Assembly: GCF_019139535.1 (NCBI RefSeq)
Contig: NZ_CP077073.1
Location: 3,128,501 to 3,192,500, forward strand
Origin: Pseudomonas muyukensis
Lineage (GTDB): Bacteria > Pseudomonadota > Gammaproteobacteria > Pseudomonadales > Pseudomonadaceae
Direction: 5' to 3'
Length of the DNA: 64,000 bases
Shown here in pieces: positions 55,995 through 64,000 of this stretch. Both the position numbers and the translations under genes were made by a program. The stretch's first letter is position 1; the number at the start of each line of letters is the position of its first letter. The notes under the pieces are model-generated. The model did not search any database, was not told where the DNA came from, and worked only from the letters and a program-made list of their open reading frames with translations.

Positions 55995-58900
55995 ATGTTC
56001 GCCGCCGACAGCTTTGCCCTGACCTGCGCCCAGCGCGACATCTGGCTGGACCAGTTGAGCCATGGCGACTCTCCGCTGTACAACATCGGCGGCTACGTCG
56101 AACTGGCAGGGACGCTCGACCCGGCCCGGCTGCGCCAGGCCCTGGCCCACCTGGTGCACGTGCATGATGCGCTGCGCTGCGTGCTGGTCGACGACCCGGC
56201 CGGCAGTGGCCTGCCGCGCCAGCGCTTCGTCGACGCTCTGGTGGTGCCCCTGGACGAGCACGACGTGCGCGGCGAAGACGACCCGCCTGCCGCCGCGCAA
56301 CGCCTGATCAAGGCGCAGATGCGCCAGGCGTTCACCCTCGACCAGGGCCCATTGCTGCGGGTGGCGCTGATCCGCCTGGGCGACCAGCATTATCGGCTGG
56401 CTGCCCAGGCCCATCACCTGATCCTCGATGGCTGGGGCTTCGAGCAGTTCTTCCTGCAACTGGGGCAGTACTACGGGCTGCTCGAGCAGGGCCTGGCGTT
56501 GCCGGTTGCAGCGCCTTCCTACCGCGCGTACATCGACGAAGACCACGCCTACCAGGGCTCGCTGCGCGAGCAGCGCGACCGTGACTACTGGTTGGCGCAA
56601 TACCGCCAGCTGCCCGACGCCTTGCTGCGCCCGCGCGAACGCGCGGCGCCCGGGGCCTCGCCCAGCCAGGCCTGCGAGCAGCCGTTCGATGGGCAACTGC
56701 TGGCGCGCATGCAACAGCTGGCCAGCGCGCAGCAGGCCTCGGTGTTGCACGTGCTGTTGGCCGCGCTGCATGTCTGCTTCACCCGCAGTGCCCAGCGCGA
56801 CGACTGGGTGGTGGGGCTGCCGCTGCGTAACCGCGGCGGCGCCCGGCACAAGGCGACGCTCGGGCTGTTCGCCCAGGTCAGCGCGCTGCGCATGGATTTC
56901 GGCCGCGAACTGAGCTTCGCCGCCTTGGTTCGTGCCATTGCCGACACACTGCGCCGCGACCTGCGCCACCAGCGCCTGCCGGTGAGTGAACTCAACCGCG
57001 CCTTGGGCCTGCTGCGCGAGGAGCGCGCGCAACTGTTCGAAGTGACGGTGTCCTACGAGGAGGAGGGCAGCGACTTGCGCTATGGCGCCTTGCCGGCGCA
57101 TACGGTGAAGGTCAGCAACGACCACGAACCCACGCCGTTGTCGTTGTACCTGCGCAGCAACCGCCACAACGGCAAGGCCTGGCTGCACCTGGTGCACAAC
57201 CTGGCCTGGCTGGACCGCGACGAGGTGCAGGCCCTGGGCGAACGCCTGCTGTGGGTGCTGGCCCAAGGGGTGGCGCAGCCGCAGCGCAGGGTCGAGGCCT
57301 TCGACATCCTGTTGCCGGCCGAGCAGCAGTTGCTCGAACAATGGAACGCTACCGCCACCCAGCCCCCGGCGCAGTGCCTGGTGCACCGCCGCATCGAAGC
57401 CCAGGCCGCCCGCCAGGCGGATGCCGTGGCCGCCCGGCAGCAGGGCCGCCAGCTGACCTACGGCGCCCTCAACCAGCAGGCCAACGCCCTTGCCGCGCAA
57501 CTGATCGAGCTGGGCGTGGGGCCCGAGCTGCGGGTGGCGGTGATGGCCCGGCGCGGGCTCGACACCCTGGTTGGCCTGCTGGCCGTGCTCAAGGCCGGCG
57601 GCGCCTACGTGCCCATCGACCCGGCGCATCCGCGCGAGCGCCTGGACTACCTGTTGCAGGACTGCGCGCCGCAGGTACTGCTGACCCAGTCCGACCTGCG
57701 CCAACGCCTGGGCGCTTGCGCGCTGCCGGTGATCGAGCTGGACCGCCTGGAGCAGACCGCGTCGGCGCTGAGCAACCCCGAGGTGGCGGGCCTGTCTGGT
57801 GCCAGCCTGGTCTATGTGATCTACACCTCAGGCTCCACCGGCCAGCCCAAGGGCGTGATGGTCGAGCAGCGCATGCTCGCCAACCTGGTGGATTGGCACT
57901 GCGAGGCCTTTGATGTGCGGCCCGGCAGCCATGTCTCGAGCCTGGCCGGTTTCGGTTTCGATGCCATGGCTTGGGAAATCTGGCCAGCGCTGTGCGCTGG
58001 CGCGACCCTGCACCTGGCGCCGGTGGGCGAGGGCAGCGAGGATATCGACGGGCTGCTGCGCTGGTGGCGCGCCCAGCCGTTGCAGGTGAGTTTCCTGCCC
58101 ACCCCGGTGGCCGAGCACGCCTTCGCCCAGGGCCAGCCGCACCCGACCCTGCGCACCTTGCTGGTGGGCGGTGACCGCTTGCGGCGCCTGGGCCGTGAAC
58201 GCGGCTATCAGGTGGTCAACAACTATGGGCCGACCGAGGCGACGGTGGTGGCCAGCTCGGGGCGGGTCGAGGCCGGGGCGCCGCTGCACATCGGCGGCGC
58301 CATCGCCAACACCCGCTTGTATGTGCTCGATGAGCGCCAGCGCCTGCTGCCGATCGGTGCTGTCGGCGAGCTCTACATCGGCGGGCTGGGGGTTGCCCGG
58401 GGCTACCTGAACCGGCCCGGGCTGAGCGCCGAGCGCTTCATCGACGACCCGTTCGCCAGCCAGGCCGAGGCACGCCTTTATCGCACCGGCGACCTGGTGC
58501 GCTGGCGCGCCGACGGCACCTTGGATTACCTGGGGCGCAACGATGACCAGGTGAAGATCCGCGGCGTGCGGGTGGAACTGGGCGAGATCGAAGCCGCCCT
58601 GGCCAGCCACGAGGCGGTGCGCGAGGCGGTAGTGCTGCTGCGTGACGGGCAACTGGTGGCCTGGTTCCTCGACGCCGGGCCCACCAGCCCGCTGGCCTTG
58701 CACGCGCACTTGCGGGCCAGGCTGCCTGCGGCCCTGTTGCCATCGGCCTATGTGGCCGTGGCCAGCTGGCCGCTCACCGCCAATGGCAAGCTTGATCGTC
58801 GCGCCTTGCCGGCGCCGACCCTGGACGCCCAGTTGCGCCGCGCCCACGAGCCGCCCCAAGGGCCGCTCGAACAGCGCCTGGCGGCGCTGTGGGTCGAGCT

Positions 58901-59081
58901 GTTGCAGGTCGAGCGAGTCGGCCGCCAGGACCATTTCTTCGAGCTGGGCGGCCATTCGCTGCTGGCGGTGCAGTTGATCGAGCGCATGCGCCAGCAGGGC
59001 CTGCAGGTCGAGGCCCAGGTGCTGTTTGGCCAGCCGACCCTGGCCAGCCTGGCAGCCGCCGTCGCCACGGAACAGGCCCAG
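55995..59081 (+). other. XtlA module 1 (residue 1): starter C - A(Leu) - T
   Basis: Residues 1-1029. The starter-type C domain has HHLILDG. The pocket reads D-A-W-F-L-G-N-V-V (Leu). The T-domain motif is 'FFELGGHSLLAV'. Confidence 0.87.
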
Positions 59082-62000
59082 GTGATACCGGCCAACCGGG
59101 TGCCACCGGGCTGCGCGCGGATAACCCCCGAAATGCTGGCCCTGGCGCGCTTGGACCAGGCCGCCATCGAGGGTATCGTCGCCACGGTGCCCGGCGGTGC
59201 GGCCAATGTGCAGGAGATCTATCCGCTGGCCCCGCTGCAGGAGGGCTTGCTCTACCACCACCTCACCGAGGCCTGCGACCCCTATCAGCAGGACGCCTTG
59301 TTCAGCTTCGCCCGCCGCGAGGACCTGGATGCCTTCAGCCGGGCGCTGGAGCAGGTGATCGCCCGTCACGACATCCTGCGCACGAGCCTGGCCTGGGAGG
59401 GCCTGGAGCAACCGCAGCAGGTGGTGTGGCGCCAGGCCAGCCTGCCTCTGAGCGTGCTCGAGGCAGGGCCTGGGGATGCCTTGACGGCGTTGCGCGCCGA
59501 GGGCCGGGCACTGGACTTGCGCGTGGCACCGATGATGGCGCTGGCCTGTGTCGAGGCCCAGGGCCGTTGGCTGGGTTTGCTGCGTTTCCACCACCTGGTC
59601 AATGACGCGGTGTCGGTGCAGGTGCTGCTCCATGAACTGCGGGCGCTGATGCTCGGCCAGGCGGATGCCTTGCCTGCGCCTGTGGCGTACCGCAACTATG
59701 TCGCCCGTAGCCGCGACCCGGCCCGCCAGGCCAGCCACGAGGCGTTCTTCAACGCCAGCCTGGCCGGTGTCGAGGCCCCGGCGCGGCTAGCGGGGATGGG
59801 CGAGGGCGGGACGCCGGACAGCCGCGCGGTCACGCTCGCGGCGCCGCTCGCCGCCAGGCTGCGGCGCTTGGCCCGCGCCCAGGATGTCGGCCTGGGCAGC
59901 CTGCTGCACCTGGCCTGGGCCCAGGTGCTGGGGGCCTTGGGCGGGCGTGACGAGGTGGTATTCGGCAGCGTGCTGCTGGGCCGGGTGATGGCTGGCGAGG
60001 GTGCCGACCGGGCACTGGGCATGTTCATCAACAGCCTGCCGCTGCGGGTGAGGCTGGGCGGATGCAGTGTTGGCCAGGCGCTGGCGGCGACCCATGCGCA
60101 ACTGGCCGCCTTGCTGGCCCATGAGGATGCGCCCCGAGTGCTGGCCCAGCGTTGCAGTGGTTTGCCGGCTGGGGTGGCATTGTTCGACAGCCTGCTCAAT
60201 TACCGCCATGGCCCGGCTGTCGAGTGCCTGGCGTTGCCGGGCGTGACGCTGGAAGAGGCCAGCGAGGTGCACAGCCACCCGCTGGTACTGACCGTGGACG
60301 ATGACGGCGACACCCTGCGCCTGGCCGTGCGCGCCCCCCGCGAACTGGGCGCGGCGCGGGTGCTGGGGCATGTCGAGTGCGCATTGCAGGCCTTGGCCGC
60401 GGCGCTGGCGGACGACCCGGCACTGGCATTGGACAGCCTGAGCACCTTGCCCGACGATGAACGCCGCTACTTGCTGGACACGCTGAATGACACCGAGGTG
60501 GCGCTGGACCCTGGCTGCCCGCACCTGCCTGCCCTGTTCGCCGCCCAGGTGCGGCGCACGCCGGATGCCGTGGCAGTGCAGGGCGAGGACGCTCAGCTCA
60601 GCTACCGCGAGCTGGACGCCCAGGCCAACCGTCTGGCCCATCACCTGATCGGCCTGGGCGTCGGGCCGGACCTGCGGGTCGCGGTGTGCCTCGAGCGCGG
60701 TGCGCAGCTGCTGATCGGCCTGCTGGGCGTGCTCAAGGCCGGCGGCGCCTATGTGCCGCTAGACCCCGGCTACCCCGATGAACGCCTGCACTACATGCTG
60801 GCCGACAGCGCGCCCGTGGCCTTGCTGGTGCATGGCGCCACCCGAGGCTTGTGGGTAGACGTGGCCACGCCACGGGTCGACCTCGACCTCGCCGATTGGC
60901 AGGCTCACCCTGCGCAGGCCCCGGCGCTCGAGGCGCTGGCCGGCGAGCACCTGGCCTATGTGATGTACACCTCGGGCTCCACCGGCACGCCCAAAGGGGT
61001 GATGGTCGCGCACCGCGGGCTGTGCAACCTGATGCACTGGGGCTCGAGCCTGTGCCCGCCGCAGCCCGACGGCGCCTTGCTGCAACGGGCGCCATTTAGC
61101 TTCGACGGTTCGGTATGGGAGCTGTTCTGGCCCCTGTGCGCCGGCCTGCGCCTGGTGCTGGCGCGCCCTGACGGTCACCGCGACCCCGAGTACCTGGTGC
61201 AGCTGATCCAGGCCCGGCGGGTGAGCATCGTCAAGTTCGTCCCAGCCCTGCTGCATGCCTTCCTCGATGCCCCAGGGGTGGCGCAGTGCAGCAGCCTGAC
61301 CGACATCTTCTGCGGTGGCGGCGAGCTGACCCTGGCCCTGGCCCGGCGCGTGCGCGAGCGTTTGCCGCGGGTGCGCCTGCATAACGTCTACGGCCCCACC
61401 GAGGCCACCGTCGACAGCACCGCCTGGACCCTCGAGGCGGATGCGCCGCTGCCCCTCAGCGCGCCGCCGATTGGCCGGGCGATCGGCAACACCCGCCTGT
61501 ACGTGCTCGACGCCCAGGACCGTCCGGTGCCGCTGGGTTGCAGCGGCGAGCTGCATATTGGCGGTATCGGCGTGGCCCGGGGCTACCTGGGCTTGCCGGC
61601 GCTGCAGGCGGCGCGCTTTATCGCCAGCCCGTTCGTGGCGGGGGACCGGCTGTATCGCAGCGGAGACCTGGTGCGCTACCGCGCCGATGGCGAGCTGGAG
61701 TTCCTTGGACGCAATGATTTCCAGGTCAAGCTCAACGGGCTGCGGATCGAACCGGGCGAGCTCGAGGCGCTGCTGGTGGCCCATCCGGCGCTGGAGCAGG
61801 CCGTGGTGCTGGTGCGCGACGAGCGCCTGGTGGCCTATGTAACCTGCCGCGAGGGGCAGGTGGCGCCAGCGCTGGAGGCACTGCGCAGCCACTTGCTGGC
61901 GCGCGTGCCGGCCTACATGGTGCCGTCGGCCTATGTGGTGCTTGGCGCGTTGCCGCTGAGCGCCAATGGCAAGGTCGACCGCAATGCCTTGCCGGCGCCC

Positions 62001-62318
62001 GGGGTACAGGCCCTGATCAGCCGCGCCTATGCCGCGCCACGGGATGCGCTGGAGCGCACGCTGGCGCAGATCTGGACCGAGGTGCTCAAGGTCGAGCAGG
62101 TAGGGCGCGACGACAACTTCTTCGAGTTGGGCGGGCATTCGTTGCTGGCGGTCAACCTGGTGGCGCGCATGCGTCAGGCGGGGTTGCATGCCGATGCGCG
62201 CCTGTTGTTCAGCCAGCCGACCCTGGCGGGCTTGGCGGCGCATACCCAGCGCCAGGCGCGGCAGGTGGAGATTCCGCGCTCGACGGTGCCAGGGTTGGCC
62301 GGGCGGCGGCGAATCTGA
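55995..62318 (+). CDS. xtlA: Two-module lipo-initiating synthetase XtlA (residues 1-2)
   Basis: A 2107-residue synthetase that starts the lipopeptide. Residues 1 to about 430 are a starter condensation domain ('LTCAQRDIWLDQLSHGDSPL', active site HHLILDG) that joins a 3-hydroxy fatty acid to Leu1. Order: Cstart, A (about 450-960), T (near 980), dual C/E (about 1045-1470), A (about 1490-1995), T (near 2041). It has no N-terminal docking domain and no thioesterase, consistent with being first in the chain. Adenylation codes read Leu then Glu. A clear AAGGA site precedes the ATG. It lies divergent to xtlR and about 7 kb downstream of xtlC; the order of action is XtlA, XtlB, XtlC, not the gene order. 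Confidence 0.93.
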   Translation: MFAADSFALTCAQRDIWLDQLSHGDSPLYNIGGYVELAGTLDPARLRQALAHLVHVHDALRCVLVDDPAGSGLPRQRFVDALVVPLDEHDVRGEDDPPAAAQRLIKAQMRQAFTLDQGPLLRVALIRLGDQHYRLAAQAHHLILDGWGFEQFFLQLGQYYGLLEQGLALPVAAPSYRAYIDEDHAYQGSLREQRDRDYWLAQYRQLPDALLRPRERAAPGASPSQACEQPFDGQLLARMQQLASAQQASVLHVLLAALHVCFTRSAQRDDWVVGLPLRNRGGARHKATLGLFAQVSALRMDFGRELSFAALVRAIADTLRRDLRHQRLPVSELNRALGLLREERAQLFEVTVSYEEEGSDLRYGALPAHTVKVSNDHEPTPLSLYLRSNRHNGKAWLHLVHNLAWLDRDEVQALGERLLWVLAQGVAQPQRRVEAFDILLPAEQQLLEQWNATATQPPAQCLVHRRIEAQAARQADAVAARQQGRQLTYGALNQQANALAAQLIELGVGPELRVAVMARRGLDTLVGLLAVLKAGGAYVPIDPAHPRERLDYLLQDCAPQVLLTQSDLRQRLGACALPVIELDRLEQTASALSNPEVAGLSGASLVYVIYTSGSTGQPKGVMVEQRMLANLVDWHCEAFDVRPGSHVSSLAGFGFDAMAWEIWPALCAGATLHLAPVGEGSEDIDGLLRWWRAQPLQVSFLPTPVAEHAFAQGQPHPTLRTLLVGGDRLRRLGRERGYQVVNNYGPTEATVVASSGRVEAGAPLHIGGAIANTRLYVLDERQRLLPIGAVGELYIGGLGVARGYLNRPGLSAERFIDDPFASQAEARLYRTGDLVRWRADGTLDYLGRNDDQVKIRGVRVELGEIEAALASHEAVREAVVLLRDGQLVAWFLDAGPTSPLALHAHLRARLPAALLPSAYVAVASWPLTANGKLDRRALPAPTLDAQLRRAHEPPQGPLEQRLAALWVELLQVERVGRQDHFFELGGHSLLAVQLIERMRQQGLQVEAQVLFGQPTLASLAAAVATEQAQVIPANRVPPGCARITPEMLALARLDQAAIEGIVATVPGGAANVQEIYPLAPLQEGLLYHHLTEACDPYQQDALFSFARREDLDAFSRALEQVIARHDILRTSLAWEGLEQPQQVVWRQASLPLSVLEAGPGDALTALRAEGRALDLRVAPMMALACVEAQGRWLGLLRFHHLVNDAVSVQVLLHELRALMLGQADALPAPVAYRNYVARSRDPARQASHEAFFNASLAGVEAPARLAGMGEGGTPDSRAVTLAAPLAARLRRLARAQDVGLGSLLHLAWAQVLGALGGRDEVVFGSVLLGRVMAGEGADRALGMFINSLPLRVRLGGCSVGQALAATHAQLAALLAHEDAPRVLAQRCSGLPAGVALFDSLLNYRHGPAVECLALPGVTLEEASEVHSHPLVLTVDDDGDTLRLAVRAPRELGAARVLGHVECALQALAAALADDPALALDSLSTLPDDERRYLLDTLNDTEVALDPGCPHLPALFAAQVRRTPDAVAVQGEDAQLSYRELDAQANRLAHHLIGLGVGPDLRVAVCLERGAQLLIGLLGVLKAGGAYVPLDPGYPDERLHYMLADSAPVALLVHGATRGLWVDVATPRVDLDLADWQAHPAQAPALEALAGEHLAYVMYTSGSTGTPKGVMVAHRGLCNLMHWGSSLCPPQPDGALLQRAPFSFDGSVWELFWPLCAGLRLVLARPDGHRDPEYLVQLIQARRVSIVKFVPALLHAFLDAPGVAQCSSLTDIFCGGGELTLALARRVRERLPRVRLHNVYGPTEATVDSTAWTLEADAPLPLSAPPIGRAIGNTRLYVLDAQDRPVPLGCSGELHIGGIGVARGYLGLPALQAARFIASPFVAGDRLYRSGDLVRYRADGELEFLGRNDFQVKLNGLRIEPGELEALLVAHPALEQAVVLVRDERLVAYVTCREGQVAPALEALRSHLLARVPAYMVPSAYVVLGALPLSANGKVDRNALPAPGVQALISRAYAAPRDALERTLAQIWTEVLKVEQVGRDDNFFELGGHSLLAVNLVARMRQAGLHADARLLFSQPTLAGLAAHTQRQARQVEIPRSTVPGLAGRRRI
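59082..62318 (+). other. XtlA module 2 (residue 2): dual C/E - A(Glu) - T
   Basis: Residues 1030-2107. The dual-type motif 'HHLTEACD' is one residue shorter than elsewhere, and the active site HHLVNDA departs from DH/DG at the last position. The pocket reads D-G-W-K-F-G-V-V-D. It differs from the Gln modules at three positions (Gly for Ala236, Lys for Gln278, Phe for Val299). The Lys could pair with a Glu side-chain carboxylate, fitting Glu at position 2. Confidence 0.8.
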
Positions 62319-62427: not shown

Positions 62428-63525
62428 TCAGGCCTTTTGCAAAACAGGGTAATCGGTATACCCCTCGGCCCCATTGGCATAATCGAACTGTGCCCGATGC
62501 GGGTTCAGCGGCGCCTGCTGCTGCAACCGCTCGACCAGGTCAGGGTTGGCGATGAACGCGCGGCCGAAGGCCACGGCATCGATCAAGCCGCGTTCGAGCA
62601 ACCCCTCGGCCTTGTCCGCGGTATAGGCCCCCGCCGCGACGATCACCCCCGGATAGGCCGCGCGAATCGCCGCGCGGAATTCGTCGCGCAGCGGCTTGCC
62701 ACCGGCCCAGTCCGGTTCGGACAAGTGCAGGTAGGCCAGGTTGCGCTTGGCCAGCTCGCCGATCAGGTACAGGCCCGCAGCCTCCTGGTCCTCGCCATTG
62801 TCGATGCCGTTGAAGCCGCCCAGCGGGAAGATGCGGATACCCACGCGATCGGCGCTCCACTGGGCAATGGCGGCATCCACCGCTTCGAGCACGATGCGCG
62901 CGCGGTTCTCGACACTGCCCCCGTAGCGGTCCTCGCGGGTGTTGGCACTGGGGGTGAGGAACTGGTGCAGCAGGTAGCCGTGGGCGGCGTGCAGCTCGAT
63001 GAAGTCGAAACCCGCCTCGCGGGCATTGGCCGCGGCCTGGCCGAAGTCGGCGACGATGCCGGCGATCTCGGCCGCGCTCAAGGCGCGTGGGGTCGAGGTT
63101 TCGACCCGGATCACATTGCGGTTTTCGTCTCGCAGGCTGGTGCGGGCATTGGCCGCCAGCGCCGACGGCGCCACCGGTGCCTGGCCCTCGGGCTGCAACG
63201 AGGTGTGCGAGACCCGGCCGGTGTGCCACACCTGCACGGCGCTGTGGCCGCCCTCGGCATGGATGCCGTCGTTGACCCGGCGCCAGCCGGCAATCTGTTC
63301 GGCGGTGTGGATGCCTGGCGAGCCGGAATAGCCCTTGGCCTGGAACGAGATCTGCGTGGCCTCGCTGATGATCAGCCCGGCACTGGCGCGCTGACGGTAG
63401 TACTCGGCCATCAGCGGTGTGGGAATGTCGCCTGGCTCCTGGCTGCGCAGGCGGGTCAGCGGCGCCATGAACACCCGGTTGGGCAGGGTGAGCGGGCCAA
63501 GTTGCAGGGGTTCGAACAATTTCAT
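62428..63525 (-). CDS. Old-yellow-enzyme family alkene reductase (NemA-like)
   Basis: A 365-residue FMN enzyme that reduces activated C=C bonds, such as those of N-ethylmaleimide and enones, using NAD(P)H. It has the N-terminal '[15 protein letters not shown]' FMN-binding segment, the active-site pair in '[14 protein letters not shown]' (about 182-195), '[14 protein letters not shown]' and the C-terminal phosphate-binding '[19 protein letters not shown]'. The length is normal. It converges on xtlA across a 109-bp gap. No strong ribosome binding site is visible before its ATG. There is no sign that it belongs to the lipopeptide pathway. Confidence 0.94.
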
Positions 63526-63661: not shown

Positions 63662-63691
63662 TTGACTTGCCAGCCGGGCCCAGGCTACTTT
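63662..63691 (+). promoter_or_regulatory. Candidate sigma70 promoter of the ilvA leader transcript
   Basis: TTGACT (63662-63667), an 18-base spacer and TACTTT (63686-63691). Transcription would start near 63697-63699, at or next to the leader-peptide ATG (63700). A TGTATT further upstream (63656) is an alternative -10 without a good -35. Confidence 0.5.
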
Positions 63692-63699
63692 TCCACCCC

Positions 63700-63765
63700 A
63701 TGAACACACGCCTGCAGTGCCGCGCCCCAAGCATTATTACCGCCATTATCGGATTGGCGGGCTAG
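63700..63765 (+). CDS. Putative Ile-containing leader peptide of ilvA
   Basis: A 21-codon reading frame ending 'SIITAIIGLAG', with four Ile codons (63733-63738 and 63745-63750) out of 21, placed before mutually exclusive hairpins and a terminator upstream of ilvA. This is the layout of an amino-acid attenuator peptide, responding to charged tRNA-Ile. No Shine-Dalgarno sequence precedes the ATG ('ttttccacccc'), and the best promoter would start the RNA within about 2-3 bases of it, so translation may be leaderless. The function is inferred from layout, and the small size means chance cannot be fully excluded. Confidence 0.7.
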   Translation: MNTRLQCRAPSIITAIIGLAG

Positions 63766-63805
63766 CGCACACATGCACGAAACCCGCCCTGGAGGCGGGT
63801 TTTTT
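63740..63805 (+). terminator. Attenuator: alternative hairpins and Rho-independent terminator before ilvA
   Basis: Region 1 CCGCC (63740-63744) can pair with region 2 GGCGG (63756-63760). Region 2 GGCGGG (63756-63761) can also pair with region 3 CCCGCC (63783-63788). Region 3 with flanking bases (AACCCGCC, 63781-63788) pairs over a 5-base loop with region 4 (GGCGGGTT, 63794-63801), followed by six T (63800-63805). The 3:4 stem is the terminator. Ribosome stalling at the Ile codons covers region 1 and favours the 2:3 antiterminator; a ribosome at the TAG (63763) covers region 2 and favours termination. Confidence 0.8.
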
Positions 63806-63811
63806 CTCTCT

Positions 63812-63843
63812 GACTCCTGGGCCCTTGAAAACAACCAGGAGTC
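63812..63843 (+). promoter_or_regulatory. Hairpin sequestering the ilvA ribosome binding site
   Basis: GACTCCTGG (63812-63820) is perfectly complementary to CCAGGAGTC (63835-63843), with a 14-base loop. The second arm contains the ilvA Shine-Dalgarno AGGAG (63837-63841), 6 bases before the ATG. When folded, the hairpin should block translation initiation, a possible second control layer after the attenuator. No ligand pocket was recognised. Confidence 0.65.
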
Positions 63844-63847
63844 ATCG

Positions 63848-64000
63848 ATGACCAGCCTCAGCCTTCCCTCGCGTACCCCCGTAACACCGCAACAACTGCT
63901 GTCCGAGCAGGTGCGGCGGATTCTCTCGGCGCCGGTGTACGACCTGGCCATCGAAACCCCGCTGCAAGGCGCCCCGGCGCTGTCGGCCAGCCTGGGCAAC
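63848..64000 (+). CDS. ilvA: Threonine ammonia-lyase IlvA, N-terminal fragment (3' end outside window)
   Basis: The first 51 codons of a PLP-dependent threonine deaminase, which makes 2-oxobutanoate from threonine as the first step of isoleucine synthesis. 'VRRILSAPVYDLAIETPLQ' matches the start of biosynthetic IlvA proteins, whose PLP lysine would lie beyond the window. The chain has about 15-20 extra residues before that block compared with the E. coli-type start. The start is the ATG after AGGAG. An in-frame ATG at 63773 would add 25 codons through the terminator and hairpin; it has no ribosome binding site and is disfavoured. Expression is probably controlled by the leader upstream. Confidence 0.88.
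   Translation, partial: MTSLSLPSRTPVTPQQLLSEQVRRILSAPVYDLAIETPLQGAPALSASLGN

Follow-up and report, generated by a model that had tools for sequence, protein, structure and literature searches.

A predicted leaderless isoleucine attenuator and a separate ribosome-site hairpin in the leader of a second Pseudomonas ilvA

The region at the 3′ end of the window (the whole stretch of 64,000 nucleotides of Pseudomonas muyukensis DNA that was analysed) is probably the leader of an isoleucine-regulated second Pseudomonas ilvA, in which a leaderless attenuator is followed by an independent translational lock on the Shine-Dalgarno (SD) sequence. The features are given in Table 1. The original prediction had placed here a 21-codon open reading frame (ORF) with the run Ile-Ile-Thr-Ala-Ile-Ile, and three mutually exclusive pairings followed by six T. 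All of these are present, and stem 1:2 has one A-U pair more than was first described. Reading of the sequence places the Ile codons at 63733-738 and 63745-750. The leader ATG lies 8 nt after the -10 and has no SD. A hairpin with the ilvA AGGAG had been described with 9 pairs; the AGGAG is at 63837-841, and the stem has 10 perfect pairs (63811-820/63835-844). The fold of the whole leader (63700-63860) has -59 kcal/mol (z -3.23), which was equalled by 0 of 200 shuffles. The ilvA product is a biosynthetic threonine ammonia-lyase of 520 aa (full ORF at L001:1749-3311), which matches NCBIfam PRK12483 with 978.5 bits (cut-off 801) and TIGR01124 with 773.8 (cut-off 411.3). A candidate in-frame N-terminal extension of ilvA runs from 63773. 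Upstream of the leader are a large ORF (55995-62318, + strand), which by eye is non-ribosomal peptide synthetase-like, and a divergent ORF (62428-63525, - strand), which by eye is NADH:flavin oxidoreductase-like.

Table 1. Layout of the ilvA leader at the 3′ end of the window, in window positions.
Feature	Position	Strand	Details
Promoter	63662..63691	+	-35 TTGACT 63662-667, 18-nt spacer, -10 TACTTT 63686-691
Leader peptide ORF, predicted leaderless	63700..63765	+	21 codons, MNTRLQCRAPSIITAIIGLAG, then stop
Stem 1:2	63740..63760	+	arms 63740-45/63755-60; 5′ arm inside Thr-Ala-Ile codons
Antiterminator 2:3	63756..63788	+	arms 63756-61/63783-88
Intrinsic terminator 3:4 and U tract	63779..63805	+	arms 63781-88/63794-801; TTTTTT 63800-805
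Rfam RF00624 match (Pseudomonas sRNA P9)	63730..63803	+	88.8 bits, E 2.5e-19
SD-sequestering hairpin	63811..63844	+	10 bp, 14-nt loop
ilvA start	63848..64000	+	ATG 63848-850; ORF runs past window end

The attenuator part of this region is already catalogued, as RF00624, but it is filed as an sRNA (an RNA gene). The match of the window to this model is full-length and far exceeds the gathering cut-off of 43 bits. It stops at the terminator, and the leader ATG, the promoter and the SD hairpin all lie outside it. The scores of other Rfam leader models were far below their cut-offs (Thr_leader, 20.7 against 55 bits; Leu_leader, 17.9 against 50; Phe_leader, 17.7 against 55). RF00624 was detected in 149 of 199 genomes of the genus (142 above the cut-off) and in 89 of 198 genomes of the family, which represent 8 of 19 genera; 83 of these family genomes were above the cut-off, and by our own count from the listing they belong to 6 genera. 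The 14 control genomes gave 0 matches. The sequence ATTATTACC has four more sites in the genome, none of which is leader-like by eye. Livny et al. (2006) reportedly detected P9 in P. aeruginosa by northern blotting and located it upstream of threonine dehydratase; we know of no function for it. If the report is right, the blotted RNA would be the expected terminated leader.

The leader ATG stands in a nearly constant position relative to a putative promoter. The layout TTGA[CT]-N17/18-TANNNT-N6/8-ATG was found in 195 of 199 distinct upstream sequences, and a slightly wider promoter-ATG pattern in 3 of 3980 base-shuffled ones. A C immediately precedes the ATG in 192 of the 195 fitting upstreams; those that miss the layout are L055, L062 and two sister leaders (L065 and L066; sister leaders are described below). 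In the family set, all 42 non-sister loci have the same layout and none of the 5 sister loci does. An SD-like 4-mer at -20 to -4 of the leader ATG was found in 8 of the 199 upstreams. The -10 of the window itself is poor (3/6 against TATAAT), and it has no entry in the consensus promoter scan. Because the leader ATG is located 6-8 nt past the -10 and almost never has an SD, a leaderless leader mRNA is predicted. In other words, the first transcribed base should be the A of the leader ATG or one a few bases away, and the leader peptide would probably be read from a leaderless mRNA. The geometry had been said to fit the textbook mechanism exactly; regions 1-4 and the Ile codons do fit, but the probable leaderless leader peptide had been missed.

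The codons of the leader peptide are conserved. A run of two or three codons for Ile, then Thr (Ser once), then Ala, Val or Ser, and then Ile is found in 219 of 222 leaders; the three other leaders include L065 and L066. Because the locus search pattern and the P9 model contain these codons, their conservation is in part selection. Full complementarity was found in nearly all of the 119 distinct cores (1:2 with 6 bp, 117; 2:3, 119; 3:4, 118). The Ile codons and the stem pairings, whose loss in close relatives had been named as a refutation, are thus kept, with this selection on the codon side. Compensatory changes, which had also been expected, were found to a limited extent: double changes occur in 3 of 14 predicted pairs of the attenuator stems, several of them within two sister leaders, and the covariation in the SD stem is modest. 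The attenuator arms are nearly invariant inside the genus, which leaves hardly any room for covariation. Attenuation by isoleucine is supported by layout and conservation, whereas the codon-based locus search and the few covarying positions temper this support.

When the leader was masked as a mimic of a stalled ribosome and the RNA ended at region 3, stem 2:3 formed in 168 of 169 leaders. When the whole downstream RNA was included, the equilibrium fold of 125 of the 169 leaders was the terminator again. Therefore, antitermination must be kinetic, as the switch is in known attenuators. From the layout, we infer the following. With plentiful Ile-tRNA, the ribosome would reach the stop codon and cover region 2, the 3:4 terminator would form, and a P9 RNA of about 106 nt would be released. 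With scarce Ile-tRNA, a ribosome stalled at the Ile codons would cover region 1, stem 2:3 would form, and RNA polymerase would read through.

P9 might instead be mainly a trans-acting sRNA, whose location before ilvA is secondary. Rfam classes P9 as a gene, and a precedent is described in excerpts of PMC7298713: in the S. meliloti trpL system (rnTrpL/peTrpL), the leader RNA begins with the start codon (ATG) of its own ORF and is released as an sRNA, and this leaderless trp attenuator RNA and its peptide act in trans. However, the reading frame, the Ile codons, the alternative stems and the link to the second ilvA all suit attenuation, and we consider a mainly trans-acting role unlikely. A role in trans is compatible with attenuation, so that both could hold. 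The S. meliloti leader uses Trp codons in place of Ile, and the excerpts mention no SD lock of trpE.

We now return to the attenuator reading and its second layer. The burial of the ribosome binding site, as originally predicted, is supported by the folds of the relatives: the SD core lies in a stem of the minimum-energy fold in 165 of 171 distinct short genus spacers (two sister leaders included) and is paired in 41 of 42 family-set loci (39 of 40 distinct spacers). In the pooled spacers, 22 of which are hand-picked family spacers, it is paired in 184 of 191. Neither the P9 model nor the locus search pattern includes the SD hairpin. For the genus set, 224 loci were parsed; L001 and L002 had been left out beforehand, and L067-L071 and L135 misfit the pattern (L067 and L069 were later read as sister leaders). 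The spacer counts derive from 221 loci with a start, which give 185 distinct spacers. The family set comprises 49 loci (L233-L281), of which L251 and L252 were unparsed, 5 sister leaders were set aside and 42 were counted. In the window, the fold of 63803-63851 has -18.5 kcal/mol (z -3.55), and 1 of 200 shuffles was as good.

Stems of this kind are concentrated behind P9-type leaders. A perfect SD stem of at least 6 bp was found at 129 of 186 distinct starts after these leaders (two sister leaders included) against 4 of 167 other gene starts, which are mechanically picked ORFs, some perhaps spurious. None of the 21 starts of the housekeeping gene ilvA1 had such a stem (at many of them a clear SD is lacking), compared with 133 of 185 starts after P9-type leaders. 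A genome scan with the loose pattern CTCCNGG..CCNGGAG gave 26 places: 19 copies of another repeat, 6 scattered places and the ilvA hairpin. The 19 copies belong to a dispersed repeat, CTCCGGGTTCCCTCACTCCGGCCTTGCTCCCGGGAG and near copies.

Covariation in the SD stem was measured in two MAFFT alignments of chosen representatives. Pairing in the 38-row alignment was 80.3% against 78.3% after shuffling (3 of 500 shuffles as high), and in the 60-row alignment it was 80.6% against 79.1% (4/500; score, 6/500). In the latter, double changes were reached by 55/500 shuffles, which is not significant alone, and further pair types by 106/500; pairs 21:60, 23:58 and 28:53 are unformed in 24, 24 and 30 of the 60 rows, respectively. 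RNAalifold kept just 4 core pairs of the 38-row alignment. The covariation is modest because the SD fixes the core. The pair adjoining the core (n=191 pool) is T-A in 83, A-T in 40, G-C in 8 and C-G in 1, and is unpaired in 59. All 14 insert-bearing spacers (92-189 nt) keep the SD paired with the same 5′ arm. Loop inserts, several of them REP-like by eye, were observed in L039, L050, L080, L133, L159, L160, L174, L180 and L181, and further ones in L197, L198, L210, L222 and L230; they form a natural insertion experiment, in which the stem is spared. In L105 the arms of the hairpin are shifted, and L062 has a different arm.

The inverted repeat at 63811-63844 is also a good dyad, as would be expected if it were a DNA operator or an mRNA-stability element and not an SD lock. 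However, the arms are separated by anything from a short loop to over 100 nt, the flanking pairs swap T-A for A-T, and the SD within the 3′ arm belongs in each case to the first ORF, be it ilvA, a SnoaL-like ORF or a second mini-ORF. These properties make an operator or stability element improbable. A conserved SD hairpin, as judged from the sequences, is strongly supported.

The next question is whether the attenuator works this lock. The mean unpaired probability of the SD was 0.03 in the free state versus 0.06 with 2:3 enforced (n=169), and in the window it was 0.0 in both states. A gain of more than 0.3 under enforced 2:3 was observed in 6 of 169 leaders. The SD hairpin, which lies outside regions 1-4, formed in 163 of 169 leaders masked up to the stall. 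Because SD accessibility is nearly unchanged by 2:3, the attenuator apparently does not control the lock, and the folding model predicts that antitermination would not open it.

No described combination of an attenuator with an SD-sequestering hairpin before a Pseudomonas ilvA had been known to the original prediction; that the combination as such is undescribed is not supported. Excerpts of PMC6851288 and PMC12288461 describe transcription attenuation plus an SD-sequestering hairpin in the B. subtilis tlrB (yxjB) and trp leaders. There, one signal (a tylosin-stalled ribosome or Trp-TRAP) drives both layers, whereas the Pseudomonas hairpin is predicted to be separate. By the tlrB precedent (PMC6851288), the Pseudomonas lock might not be independent, so that the stalled leader ribosome or the antiterminator opens it too. 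The six leaders that gain accessibility would agree with this, but the values in the window, the small change of the mean and the hairpin that forms with the leader masked make it very unlikely. A tlrB-type coupling, in which the stalled ribosome also blocks the SD hairpin, did not emerge from the predicted accessibility.

Two candidate openers were compared by eye. An anti-lock between GGAG of the terminator loop and the CUCC arm of the hairpin was rejected, since the loop sequence differs among the aligned leaders (CTGGA, CTAGA, CTCGA, CAAGA and others) while the arm shows no matching changes. Pairing of the U tract with an A-rich hairpin loop is made less likely by the mini-ORF clade, whose loops are not A-rich. 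The lack of a known opener is a difficulty for a lock as strong as -18.5 kcal/mol, which could silence the gene. Perhaps the hairpin only tunes initiation, by standby-type loading, and has no regulatory opener. No opener was found, and the pyrimidine-rich stretch ahead of the hairpin could be a standby site. However, a stable hairpin is kept across genera and would be costly if it merely lowered the expression of an already attenuated gene. We take this possibility seriously although we lean away from it. For the independent lock that we prefer, the readthrough mRNA would fold the separate hairpin, a structure for which conservation speaks strongly, over the first SD past the terminator. In either state of the attenuator, the hairpin would keep ilvA, or a short ORF to which ilvA is coupled, poorly translated. 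It would keep a spare isozyme off and need an opener of its own, or else set a low ceiling.

The distribution of ilvA copies bears on this isozyme. In all 19 P9-negative genomes examined (of 50 negatives), there is a single ilvA (E <= 1e-60) of the housekeeping ilvA1 type; rpiA adjoins it in 13 of the 19, and the fetched stretches of the 19 contain no P9 core. A P9-positive control genome has two ilvA copies. Since P9 is absent where ilvA is single, the double brake would therefore belong to the spare isozyme.

Within the genus, the ORF directly behind the lock is ilvA, except at 41 loci (35 distinct sequences), where it is a second mini-ORF, which has 26-40 codons with the stop counted. The ATGA at its end overlaps the next start in 41/41, and where the sequence was read on, this start is that of ilvA. 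The Ile content of the mini-ORF is 14.1% against 3.2% in base-shuffled sequences (at most 5.6%), and 33 of the 35 distinct sequences have Ile as their second codon. The Ile-rich mini-ORF is carried by L003-L012, L016-L018, L020, L025, L028, L091, L098, L117, L142, L165, L170-L172 and others. The carriers include P. viridiflava, P. congelans, P. amygdali, P. tremae and P. caricapapayae, which we take to be P. syringae relatives. Eight pairs of mini-ORFs showed 18 synonymous against 32 non-synonymous codon changes, which gives no hint that purifying selection acts on the peptide. Translational attenuation within the mini-ORF was considered and rejected: in 34 distinct leaders, the mean accessibility of the ilvA SD was 0.33 without a ribosome, 0.34 when one stood at codon 3 and 0.42 when it stood at codon 15, which is no clear switch. 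In other genera, the gene behind the lock is either ilvA or a SnoaL/DUF4440-like ORF with ilvA after it; this ORF overlaps ilvA in L255 and L272. From these overlaps, the locked site seems to be handed on to ilvA by translational coupling.

Sister leaders with Ile-Ile-Thr-Thr were observed in L065, L066, L067, L069 and L275-L279. They precede SnoaL/DUF4440-like or AAA_33 genes and have the same kind of terminator; several, not all, have the SD hairpin. They may respond to Thr besides Ile. Across the order, which we take to be Pseudomonadales in GTDB, the RF00624 signal is weak: it was found in 26 of 194 genomes, 8 of them above the cut-off, and 3 of these 8 are outside the family. Twelve such loci were read. 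In nine, a small P-loop NTPase follows a leader of the kind MKLNLTQKTARIIIIIP, two are not leader-like, and in L325 a threonine dehydratase follows a different mini-ORF. A pattern search of the other families found 17 of 390 genomes and 11 of 142 genera. From its 18 loci, 15 were parsed; 14 have a leaderless-type promoter, as scored by a looser pattern without a shuffle control, and 10 have a paired SD core. RIIIIIP-type leaders, in which as many as five Ile codons precede the stop, were observed in L315-L322, L326 and L328-L343. The P-loop NTPase after RIIIIIP leaders has a below-cut-off match to the NCBIfam family 'DNA topology modulation protein' and no Pfam match. Related layouts, as recognised by sequence, occur before other genes in other families of the order.

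We tentatively raise a wider idea, which we hold with less confidence than doubt. There may be an order-wide class in which a leaderless Ile attenuator and an independently regulated lock on the first ORF precede ilvA2, SnoaL-like/ilvA or P-loop NTPase genes. One clade might have a third layer, a lock-gated Ile-rich mini-ORF coupled to ilvA, and the released P9 RNA would perhaps serve as a tiny mRNA or function in trans.

The enteric ilv, thr, leu and trp attenuators are built from regulatory codons, regions 1-4, an intrinsic terminator and a cognate downstream gene. The ilvA2 leader shares all four with them, but differs in that it is predicted to be leaderless and has an extra SD hairpin. 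Leaderless leader peptides occur in Actinobacteria. Leader peptides before ilvB and other genes of C. glutamicum are described in excerpts of PMC3890552. Among the matches listed from CC-licensed literature, where short names such as P9 are unsearchable and absence weighs little, no Pseudomonas ilvA attenuator, no function of P9 and no leaderless Pseudomonas attenuator was described. The main text of PMC8297930 does not contain PA1326, threonine, isoleucine or leader peptide; that of PMC2965389 does not contain ilvA, ilvG, threonine or isoleucine; and that of PMC3460626 does not contain leaderless, leader peptide or ilvA. In excerpts of PMC5542712, ilvA2 is just a putative target of another sRNA. 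Thus the kind of element, an amino-acid attenuator, is known; what is probably new is the probable leaderless leader, the independent lock and the Ile-rich coupled ORF of one clade. Both the sensing of isoleucine and the function of the lock are deduced from sequence.

If this is true, the catalogued sRNA P9 becomes an isoleucine attenuator and probably a leaderless mRNA, and a gammaproteobacterial example would be added to the leaderless leader peptides of S. meliloti trp and Actinobacteria. The finding poses the question of what opens a strong, conserved lock on a ribosome site that is seemingly untouched by the attenuator. It also suggests a route by which a duplicate biosynthetic enzyme may stay silent.
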